From contig CALGMO010000068.1 in assembly GCA_937961665.1 (NCBI GenBank), positions 1 through 46,760 of the forward strand: a stretch of 46,760 nucleotides of DNA, given 5' to 3'. The notes under the pieces are model-generated. The model was not told the origin of the DNA and ran no database searches. It saw nothing but the letters and a program-made list of their open reading frames with translations. This document shows positions 7,985 through 46,681 of this stretch, piece after piece (within the stretch, counting starts at the first letter, position 1; the number at the start of each line of letters is the position of its first letter). Made by a program: the position numbers and the translations under genes. The DNA is from an uncultured Fimbriimonadaceae bacterium. GTDB taxonomy: Bacteria > Armatimonadota > Fimbriimonadia > Fimbriimonadales > Fimbriimonadaceae.

Positions 7985-8008
7985 GCGGCCCCTTGGGGAG
8001 AGGACGCT

Positions 8009-8671
8009 TCAGCGCTTCCGGCGCCGCATCAGAGCGGCCACGCCGAGACCGAGGGCCGCGATCGTGGCAGGCTCCGGAACGGCCTCCACGCCGCCCAGCC
8101 GGTAGTCGGCGCCGGGCTCGCTGGTGAATCGAAGGATGACCTGGTCGACGTCGGTCAGATTGAACGATCCGAAGACCGAGTACGGGATCGACAGATCGAA
8201 CGGAACAGCCGAGGCCGCCACGGACGTGTTGTAGTTGAACCACTGCGAGCTCGCTCCCGCCGTCCTCCGGAGCTGGACGAGCAACCCGAGGTTGCCGGAG
8301 TTCTCCAGGAACGAGATCTTGAGGGCGTTGTTGCCACCGGCGGTCAGATCCGCGTTCAGATCGGCCAGCGCGCCGCCCAGCGTGTAACCGTAGCGCAGTT
8401 CGCTGACGTGCACCAGGCCGTTTCCGGCGACGAAGTCAGCCACGCCGCCGCCAACCGCCACCGAGAGCTGGCTGCTGCTCGGGTTGGCGGTCACATTGGA
8501 GAGAGTCCACCGCGTGCCGCCGAGCATGCTCCCCGCCACCCTCGCGCTCGAGGTGCCGACGCTGCTGCGGGTGTACGAGAAAGTCCCGGTCGTGAAATCG
8601 TCGATCACGATGACCGGGAAGGCGAGCGCCGAAAGCGCCACGCCAGAAACGATCGCCAAGCCTTTCACCAT
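8009..8671 (-). CDS. PEP-CTERM sorted surface protein
   Basis: A 220-aa exported protein has a signal peptide (MVKGLAIVSGVALSALA) and a Ser/Thr/Gly-rich beta-type body. Its tail is a textbook PEP-CTERM signal: EAVPEPATIAALG, a hydrophobic stretch and a terminal RRRKR. In this system an exosortase recognises the tail and anchors or releases the protein at the cell surface, usually in connection with exopolysaccharide. The body resembles a carbohydrate-binding-like beta sandwich only in general composition, and I do not assign a function. ATG 8671 is preferred over GTG 8677, because GAGGAG then lies about six bases upstream. A TACAAT -10-like hexamer is upstream, but I found no sigma-54-like box here, unlike two of its relatives. 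Confidence 0.88.
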   Translation of the reverse strand: MVKGLAIVSGVALSALAFPVIVIDDFTTGTFSYTRSSVGTSSARVAGSMLGGTRWTLSNVTANPSSSQLSVAVGGGVADFVAGNGLVHVSELRYGYTLGGALADLNADLTAGGNNALKISFLENSGNLGLLVQLRRTAGASSQWFNYNTSVAASAVPFDLSIPYSVFGSFNLTDVDQVILRFTSEPGADYRLGGVEAVPEPATIAALGLGVAALMRRRKR

Positions 8672-8849
8672 TGCCACTCCTCAAGCTGCCCCAACGGGCC
8701 CGATTGCATTGTACAACGCCTTGGCCCGAGGACGCGGAGATTTTTAACCGAATGGGCCGCCGGGCGACAGAACCTGTTAGAAATACCTGCCCCGGGCGGC
8801 CGCAAACACGCTCGGGGCGGATTCGGGCTTGCGGGGTACCCTACTTCCT

Positions 8850-11014: not shown

Positions 11015-11057
11015 CGGGTACCGGCTGAAACGCCGGTTTTGGGCCGAGCGGGCCGTT

Positions 11058-11073
11058 CGGCACGCGCTTTGCG
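11058..11073 (+). promoter_or_regulatory. Sigma-54-type promoter of the PEP-CTERM gene at 11130
   Basis: CGGCACGCGCTTTGCG matches the sigma-54 pattern: GG at 11059-11060, exactly ten bases, then GC at 11071-11072, with CACG after GG and TTT before GC. It lies 57 bp before the ATG. An upstream box GAAAyrCCGGTTTT about 20 bases earlier is shared with the copy at 24483. Confidence 0.65.
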
Positions 11074-11129
11074 GACTCTCCTCGTCGCGCGCCCGAAACG
11101 GGGCGACGGGCTAGAAGAGGAGAGAAACC

Positions 11130-11744
11130 ATGAACCTGAAGACCCTTGCAGCGGCCTCCGCCATCCTCGCCGCGACCGCCTCCCAGGCGGTGATCGTCAA
11201 CTTCGGCGGCTTCACCCAGAACCCCGGCGGGGCCCTCGGCGAGGGGCTGTTCGTCCAGCACGGCACTCTGAACACCTTCGCCGGGCAGATCTTGGGAACG
11301 GTCCAAGGCCAGTCCGCACCGACCGTCTTCTTCTGCATCTCGCCGGACAAGGTCCTTCCGCTGCCGGCCAGCATCGACTACGACGTGACGCTCGCCTACG
11401 GCCCGATGGGCGCGGTCCTGCAGCACGCCTTCGGCCTCGGCACGGCCAACGAGAACGAGGCGGCCCGCCAGCTGGAGCTGTGGCAGATGGTCGGCGACGA
11501 CATCAGCCTGTACCAGCCGAGCGGCGGAAACAGCACCGCCGTGAACGCCGCCAAGACGGCCGCGCACGGCTATTCCGAGACCGGCTCGGCGTGGTACGCG
11601 ATCTATACGCCCAAGAACGGCAACACCCAGACGCTCGTCACGACGAGCTACCAGACGACCGGCGTGCCCGTCCCCGAGCCGGTGACCGTTGGTCTGTTCG
11701 TCAGCGGGCTGGCCGCGGCTCTGCGCCGCCGACGCCGCCGCTGA
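11130..11744 (+). CDS. PEP-CTERM sorted surface protein
   Basis: A 204-aa exported protein starts with signal peptide MNLKTLAAASAILAATASQA and ends with VPVPEPVTVGLF, a hydrophobic segment and six arginines, the full tripartite PEP-CTERM sorting signal. The body (GGFTQNPGG, VFFCISPD, WQMVGDDISLY) has no domain I recognise. The ribosome site is AGAGGAG eight bases before the ATG. The gene stands alone behind a sigma-54-type promoter and is followed by a hairpin, so it is probably a single-gene transcript needing an RpoN activator. Neither rpoN nor an exosortase gene is in the window. Confidence 0.88.
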   Translation: MNLKTLAAASAILAATASQAVIVNFGGFTQNPGGALGEGLFVQHGTLNTFAGQILGTVQGQSAPTVFFCISPDKVLPLPASIDYDVTLAYGPMGAVLQHAFGLGTANENEAARQLELWQMVGDDISLYQPSGGNSTAVNAAKTAAHGYSETGSAWYAIYTPKNGNTQTLVTTSYQTTGVPVPEPVTVGLFVSGLAAALRRRRRR

Positions 11745-24377: not shown

Positions 24378-24482
24378 GGAGTTCTGGTCCTAGCCTACCG
24401 TACGCGGGAGGGACGGCGTCGGGTGCCCGCTCGGCTCCGGGGACCTAGACGAAATACCGGTTTTTCCGGTGCCGCGGAACAT

Positions 24483-24498
24483 CGGCACGCGTTCTGCG
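24483..24498 (+). promoter_or_regulatory. Sigma-54-type promoter of the PEP-CTERM gene at 24566
   Basis: CGGCACGCGTTCTGCG has GG at 24484-24485, ten bases, then GC at 24496-24497. It differs from the box at 11058 at only two positions. The upstream GAAAyrCCGGTTTT box is also present (24451-24464). It lies 68 bp before the ATG. Confidence 0.65.
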
Positions 24499-24565
24499 TT
24501 CCAAAGCAGGTAGGTGGTCCTGCGTTCGCGCGGACGGCCAACGTGAAACGAGAGGGTTCCTGATC

Positions 24566-25219
24566 ATGAAGCTTCGTTCCATTGCTCTCTTGGCCGGTTT
24601 GGCGGTCTTGGGATCCGCGCAGGCCGCATCCGTCATCCTGTACGACAATCTCGATCCCGGCGGGTACATCCCGACGAACGGCTGGACGATTTCCACGGTC
24701 CAGTCGCTGGGTCTGATGTTCACGCCGAGCGTGACCGCCACGCTCTCGCAGCTTCACCTGACCCTGTCCAGCTTCGAGCCGGTCCAGGGTTCCCAGAACG
24801 TCCCGCTGTACGACATCCAGCTGGTGGACAGCGTTCCGAGCGATCCGAACTTCAACACGCTGCCCTTCCTGCCCGGGAGCAACGTGCTCGCGTCTTGGTC
24901 GGACGTGGCTGGAGCGGGACTGAACGTTCTGACTCCGTCCGCCTCCGTGCAGCTGGCCGCGGGCACCAGCTACTGGGTGATCGTCAGCCCTGGCACGTCG
25001 TATTCCGGGCCCGGCGGCCTGTGGCTGTTCAACGCGAACGGCAAGTTGGGCGATCTTGCGTCGAACTTCGGCTCGGTGTGGTTCGACGACGACTCGAGCG
25101 TCGCCGGAGGGATGCGCGTGGTCGGCGAGACGAGCGTGCCGGTTCCGGAGCCCGCGACGCTCGCCTTGGCGGGGCTCGGCCTCGGTCTGGCCGCCCGTCG
25201 GCGCGCGCGGCGCGTCTGA
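24566..25219 (+). CDS. PEP-CTERM sorted surface protein (first of a tandem pair)
   Basis: The 217-aa exported protein has signal peptide MKLRSIALLAGLAVLGSAQA and ends with VPVPEPATLALAG, a hydrophobic segment and RRRARRV. The body starts with VILYDNLDPGG and contains SNVLASWSDVAGAGLNVLT and ASVQLAAGTSYWVIVSPG. The next gene repeats this pattern, so the two are paralogues of a beta-sandwich-like family often seen with PEP-CTERM tails. An AGAGGG ribosome site is upstream. Expression is likely to need RpoN, given the promoter box. Confidence 0.88.
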   Translation: MKLRSIALLAGLAVLGSAQAASVILYDNLDPGGYIPTNGWTISTVQSLGLMFTPSVTATLSQLHLTLSSFEPVQGSQNVPLYDIQLVDSVPSDPNFNTLPFLPGSNVLASWSDVAGAGLNVLTPSASVQLAAGTSYWVIVSPGTSYSGPGGLWLFNANGKLGDLASNFGSVWFDDDSSVAGGMRVVGETSVPVPEPATLALAGLGLGLAARRRARRV

Positions 25220-46653: not shown

Positions 46654-46681
46654 CTATCGGCAATTCTGCCGGGTGTCCTTA
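46654..46681 (-). promoter_or_regulatory. Sigma-28-like promoter of the flagellar operon
   Basis: On the minus strand TAAG (46681-46678), 16 bases, then GCCGATAG (46661-46654) resembles the FliA consensus TAAA-N15-GCCGATAA. The -10 differs at the last base and the spacer is one base long. It overlaps a small inverted repeat, CGGCA-ATTC-TGCCG (46659-46672). Confidence 0.45.

Follow-up and report, generated by a model that had tools for sequence, protein, structure and literature searches.

Among the described systems closest to the one examined here is that reported by Haft et al. (2006), in which PEP-CTERM genes, in Proteobacteria only, are preceded by a sigma-54 motif and, about 63 nt further upstream, by a second motif that ends in TTTACA (PMC1569441). 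The genes analyzed in this study resemble that system, being PEP-CTERM genes, usually in single-gene units, with a -24/-12 element and an upstream motif (PMC1569441), but differ from it in the motif and its spacing, in the presence of a sigma-54 element at only 3 of about 24 PEP-CTERM genes of the genome, in that no PrsK/PrsR pair was detected, and in that the upstream box is shared with sigma-70-type promoters. Aquincola tertiaricarbonis pepA is an RpoN-dependent PEP-CTERM gene whose transcription start has been mapped by primer extension (PMC9850573); it shares with the genes studied here the -24 TGGCAC and -12 CTGC elements, but belongs to a Proteobacterium and carries a predicted PrsR-type enhancer sequence (PMC9850573).

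Two further systems are comparable at the level of the activator. Sigma-54 activators of type Ic, such as Chlamydia CtcC and Helicobacter FlgR, have no DNA-binding domain (PMC3162934), and the activator found here likewise consists of a receiver and an AAA+ domain without a helix-turn-helix (HTH), and is the sole sigma-54 activator found in its genome; it comes from another phylum, and its targets would be PEP-CTERM surface proteins. In Borrelia, BosR binds next to the -24/-12 element, at which the sole activator, Rrp2, has no specific site (PMC3037356). The Rrp2-RpoN-BosR system therefore also pairs a sole sigma-54 activator with a second DNA-binding protein (here a proposed one) beside the -24/-12 element, but BosR binds TAAATTAAAT repeats, whereas the box of the putative second protein described below serves sigma-70-type promoters too. 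Our literature search returned no paper joining Fimbriimonadia with PEP-CTERM, and the single match for Armatimonadetes was incidental, judged by title and term counts.

The window, that is, the whole stretch of 46,760 nucleotides that was analyzed, corresponds to contig C68 of an assembly of 2.88 Mb in 142 contigs (95% complete), across which pattern and profile searches were run. The following features of the window concern two of its PEP-CTERM genes, referred to below by their first positions, 11130 and 24566:

11021..11040, + strand: upstream box in its full form, CCGGCTGAAACGCCGGTTTT; its right part is the 14-mer discussed below, and it matches the genus-wide box weakly
11057..11073, + strand: sigma-54 -24/-12 promoter TCGGCACGCGCTTTGCG of PEP-CTERM gene 11130, predicted start near 11084, kept in two sister species
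11130..11744, + strand: PEP-CTERM protein of 204 aa with a signal peptide-like start and a VPEP...RRRRRR end (TIGR02595, 24.3 bits, cut-off 16)
24445..24464, + strand: upstream box in its full form, CTAGACGAAATACCGGTTTT, the window's best match to a matrix built solely on boxes of the sister species
24482..24498, + strand: sigma-54 -24/-12 promoter TCGGCACGCGTTCTGCG of PEP-CTERM gene 24566, predicted start near 24509
24566..25219, + strand: PEP-CTERM protein of 217 aa (PF07589, 27.7 bits)

Direct reading finds the pattern CGGCACGCG-N3-TGCG, with GG and GC ten bases apart, before both genes, and GGCACGCGCTTTGCG (11059-11073) and GGCACGCGTTCTGCG (24484-24498) are the sole zero-mismatch promoter matches within the window. 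The promoters read CGGCACGCGCTTTGCG from 11058 (gene 11130) and CGGCACGCGTTCTGCG from 24483 (gene 24566); set against the consensus TGGCACG-N4-TTGC, they offer GGCACG-N4-TTGC and GGCACG-N4-CTGC, respectively, each with GG-N10-GC. Since promoter matches with two mismatches are not commoner in the window than in shuffled sequence, the promoter string alone is little proof. Genome-wide, TNGGCAC-N5-YTGC was found at 11 sites, compared with 7 for the reversed control; three of the 11 precede PEP-CTERM genes (about 0.007 expected, an estimate), and most others lie inside reading frames. The genome holds one copy of rpoN (PF04552, 119.8 bits), the gene named in the original prediction.

Both leaders also carry GAAAyrCCGGTTTT, as GAAACGCCGGTTTT at 11027-11040 and GAAATACCGGTTTT at 24451-24464, ending 18 and 19 bases before the GG; the likeness of the two boxes at matched offset from the -24 element gives p = 0.0018 in a shuffle test. 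The promoter and upstream box proposed to be common to the two genes are confirmed by direct reading. The strict pattern of box plus promoter occurs at two places in the genome only, 11130 and 24566. The relaxed pair AANNCCGGTTN{12,30}GGCACNNNNNYTGC occurs at exactly three, these two and contig C66 (2375-2420), and all three precede PEP-CTERM genes, while the reversed-pattern control gave no matches in this genome; the genome-wide scan that had been proposed thus yielded, by pattern search, PEP-CTERM genes at 3 of 3 sites. The spacers from CCGG to GG at the three sites are 22, 23, and 24 nt long, and the box lies at about -44 to -57. Among 100 relatives, the pair matched once each in G011 and in G044, in neither case ahead of a PEP-CTERM gene. 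The proteins encoded by 11130, 24566, and the C66 gene have a C-terminal motif of PEP, transmembrane, and basic parts (in the C66 protein, by genome-wide search only), and pairwise BLAST finds little in common between them beyond it.

A site on contig C35 (position 17680, L264) was considered as a fourth member and left out, as half of the box (TTTTTGCCGGTTCC, 14 nt before GGCACGTTTCCTGC) is present and the spacing is different. Its sigma-54-like sequence, TCGGCACGTTTCCTGC, with the partial box 14 nt upstream, is intergenic, lying between a FliA-like sigma gene and, downstream, a PrsA/SurA-like lipoprotein gene. In another pair of leaders (L023 on contig C129 and L139 on contig C135 of sister species G001), TGGCAC stands at sigma-54 distance after the box with no GC at -12, and a TTACACT -10 element then follows; this promoter has possibly switched from sigma-54 to sigma-70.

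Two sister species were compared, G001 (73% complete) and G002. Orthologues of 11130 are present in both, at 89% (G001) and 75% (G002) identity, and each is adjoined by the stop codon of the gene that ends just upstream of the 11130 box, which we take, as recognized from sequence only, to be argJ. In these leaders CGGCACGC-N3-YTGCR is kept at the same place although the flanks have diverged, and the box has drifted, to AAAAGTTCCGGCTTT in G001 and GAGATTGCGGTTTT in G002. For the C66 gene the comparison with G001, at 99% identity, is uninformative; in G002 the gene's sigma-54 element is degenerate and the box lost. For 24566, no close orthologue was found among the fetched loci; a distant G002 homologue (31% identical) has the box and no sigma-54 site. 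The case for sigma-54 is therefore strongest at 11130, where the element is kept in both sister species. Taking together the exact elements, the single rpoN, the PEP-CTERM-specific pairing with the box, and the conservation at 11130, the proposed RpoN-type -24/-12 element before both genes is well supported: the promoter at 11130 is very likely real, and so is that at 24566, at a slightly lower level of confidence. As a separate observation, the non-coding leader of the C66 gene (L024/L252) is almost identical to that on contig C322 of G001 (L253), while the orthologue of 11130 reaches only 89% identity; the 99% identity of the C66 gene may reflect recent transfer, recombination, or cross-binning.

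The box extends well beyond the sigma-54 promoters. A motif search upstream of PEP-CTERM genes returned a near-palindrome, CCGGCAATTTTGCCGGTTTT, whose right part is the box described above; the general longer form is the palindromic aCCCGGYAAWTTTRCCGGTTTT, with ACCCGGTAATTTTGCCGGTTTTTG as an example. A profile built from 16 boxes by their sequence alone matched 30 places in this genome, 29 in G002, and 12 in G001, compared with 0-6 in nearly all other relatives; G019, G023, and G074 had somewhat higher counts than other relatives outside the genus. The two G019 matches that were inspected are each a copy of the same repeat; among those inspected in G023, most do not precede PEP-CTERM genes. 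The notion of a family-wide element was rejected, as counts outside the genus are at background level in nearly all relatives. Twelve of the 27 inspected sister-species matches lie directly before PEP-CTERM genes, others before flagellin or LacI-type regulator genes, and in this genome the targets also include flagellin, type IV pilin-like, and LacI-type regulator genes.

To guard against circularity, a matrix was made solely from sister-species boxes. It matches 16 of the 24 PEP-CTERM upstream regions of this genome at a background p of 0.01 or less. Within the window the 24566 box ranks first on either strand, and a minus-strand box near 8768 ranks third; this box belongs to the third PEP-CTERM gene of the window:

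about 8003..8671 (approximate ends), - strand: PEP-CTERM gene, motif at 8015-8083, with a sigma-70-type promoter
about 8764..8794, - strand: weaker box GGTATTTCTAACAGGTTC before this gene, followed at 60 nt by a TACAAT -10 element and lacking a sigma-54 element

The boxes at 11130 (5.0 bits, p = 0.064) and C66 (p = 0.2) score weakly, and only that at 24566 is a clear member of the general class. The view that the box is missing from the other PEP-CTERM genes did not hold, given that 16 of 24 upstream regions carry its longer form and the window's third gene a weaker one. Of the suggestion of at least two expression classes, the existence of two promoter classes stands, but what separates them is the core promoter and not the presence of the box.

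Several other loci with the box deserve mention. A flagellin gene has two copies of it upstream in this genome (L061, contig C28, 1457-1529), and the box is also present in G002 (L131, contig C68 of that assembly), which suggests that motility and PEP-CTERM genes are under a common regulator. LacI-type regulator genes carry an upstream box in both species (L077 on contig C96; L129 on contig C50 of G002), and such a regulator may be the box-binding protein or may itself be under that protein's control. At 46655-46677 of the window, near the contig end, there is a palindromic box-like sequence, TCGGCAATTCTGCCGG, and the gene it possibly serves lies past the end. Downstream of the -10 element, the related PEP-CTERM leaders L247 (contig C73) and L248 (contig C92 of G002) have a conserved stretch in common, gtgaaggtgccgag...cggaggccggatcga, which is possibly a 5' UTR element.

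At sigma-70-type promoters the box is phased with the -10 element. With the -10 chosen by algorithm and the distance counted from the CCGG of the box, the values fall at 28-29, 38-41, 48-51, and 59-60 nt, apart from a single value of 33. Compared with uniform placement, this gives p = 0.001 in this genome and 0 of 5000 random sets for the full set; the former is the fairer figure, because sister orthologues are not independent. No obvious -35 element was seen by eye at these promoters. Class I activators, such as CRP, touch RNA polymerase from one DNA face, and spacing by helical turns is what would be expected of an activator making such a contact. It is very likely that the box is the site of a regulator working mainly with sigma-70-type promoters; a protein would then bind the box, and would act as an activator.

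Whether the boxes at 11130, 24566, and C66 are this same operator is a closer question. The sigma-54 promoters could be real and the short box AAAnnCCGGTTT at these three genes a separate element with its own protein, resembling the general box in CCGGTTT only. Its left half reads GAAAyr as opposed to AWTTTR in the general box, the 11130 and C66 boxes score low on the general matrix, and the 22-24 nt spacing is peculiar to these three genes. Against this, the 24566 box is a clear member of the general class, first in the window, and the G002 box at the 11130 orthologue, gagattgCGGTTTT, resembles the general form. We regard a separate element as rather unlikely and favor, on balance, the same operator at all three sigma-54 promoters, in which case the boxes at 11130 and C66 would be placed in the general class. 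Since the box looks like a variant of a PEP-CTERM box confined to the genus, it probably serves a separate regulator rather than the sigma-54 activator.

The properties of that activator point in the same direction. A strong sigma-54 AAA+ interaction domain was found in one protein of the assembly, of 390 aa, composed of receiver, AAA+, and lid, which ends directly after the lid without a Fis-type HTH (HTH_8). By eye, no frame restoring the HTH was seen just after its stop codon, and no Fis-type HTH across the genome exceeded the family cut-off. In the named genome collection its closest homologue belongs to Chthonomonas sp. UBA2017 (Armatimonadota; L162); that protein shares 59% identity with it and stops at the same place, and the kinase beside that homologue is 39% identical to the kinase adjoining the activator here; the shared endpoint and neighboring kinase make it probable that this architecture was inherited and is not an assembly error. 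It is from this one homologue that the probable placement of the genome in the Armatimonadota is drawn. The other homologues listed extend 80-107 residues into an HTH, and one more short copy is cut by a contig end. As the assembly is 95% complete, a second activator could be missing from it.

The original prediction tied these genes to PrsK/PrsR, with the box as the activator's site, so that a PrsK/PrsR-like pair would act with RpoN and the box would be the PrsR enhancer. Proteobacterial PEP-CTERM genes do combine an activator motif with a sigma-54 motif tied to PrsK/PrsR (PMC1569441), and Aquincola pepA is RpoN-dependent with a mapped -24/-12 element (PMC9850573), but motif 1 of the Proteobacteria, with TTTACA at its end, is separated from the sigma-54 motif by about 63 nt (minimum 32), whereas a different box stands here at 18-19 nt. 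Direct reading of the sequences upstream of 11130 and 24566 shows no TTTACA-ending motif about 63 nt before the sigma-54 motif. The search for prsR found the only clear sigma-54 activator, without its HTH, at 374.3 bits against PrsR (TIGR02915, NCBIfam; cut-off 502.6), part of the shortfall being the missing C-terminus itself, and the adjacent kinase, the one scored, at 98.1 bits against the PrsK cut-off of 300. The box is, moreover, common to sigma-70-type promoters, lies at about -44 to -57, and would have to be bound by an activator without a DNA-binding domain. Control by PrsK/PrsR is thus unlikely, and a PrsR enhancer at the box very unlikely.

Still less probable is a role for the box at the RNA level, as the intrinsic terminator of the upstream gene or as a hairpin of some other kind. 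Some copies do read CCGGC...GCCGG followed by TTTT (11130, L007, L022), and the 11130 box lies 13 nt downstream of the argJ stop; however, the ABC transporter gene neighboring 24566 is divergent, as the upstream reading frames at L008 and L022 also appear to be, many copies have no G+C-rich stem while the AT-rich core is conserved, and the distance from box to -10 is helically phased. As a structured RNA the box was rejected by an Rfam search of 17 loci, which returned only a tRNA and one sub-threshold match elsewhere, with no match at the boxes. That GC-rich DNA yielded a sigma-54-like string twice by chance is scarcely credible: loose promoter matches are as common as in shuffled sequence, but all three box-plus-promoter sites precede PEP-CTERM genes and the 11130 site is kept in two sister species.

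The explanation that we favor, and consider moderately probable as a whole, combines RpoN promoters, an activator without an HTH, and a box for a separate dimeric regulator that also serves sigma-70-type promoters. RpoN would transcribe 11130 and 24566 from their sigma-54 promoters, which a single NtrC-type response regulator would open; having lost its DNA-binding domain, this regulator is proposed to act from solution on the promoter-bound polymerase. The box just upstream would be bound by a different, dimeric DNA-binding protein, predicted to control most PEP-CTERM genes of the genus as well as some flagellin, type IV pilin-like, and regulator genes, and to work mostly at sigma-70-type promoters, with the box on a fixed helix face relative to the -10 element. 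More tentatively, and with considerable doubt, one operator and one putative protein may coordinate a surface-protein regulon over both promoter types, using phased distances at sigma-70-type promoters and one fixed distance at sigma-54 promoters, where the protein would replace the lost enhancer function.

The link between PEP-CTERM genes and sigma-54 was earlier described as proteobacterial and tied to PrsK/PrsR; here it is found, probably, in the Armatimonadota and with different parts, which suggests that the link had more than one origin or has been rewired. With a sole activator that lacks a DNA-binding domain, the question arises of how promoters are chosen, and a nearby box with another protein, for which Borrelia BosR is a partial precedent, is a testable answer. 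The genus-wide box provides a concrete operator with which a regulator of cell-surface proteins may be fished out.
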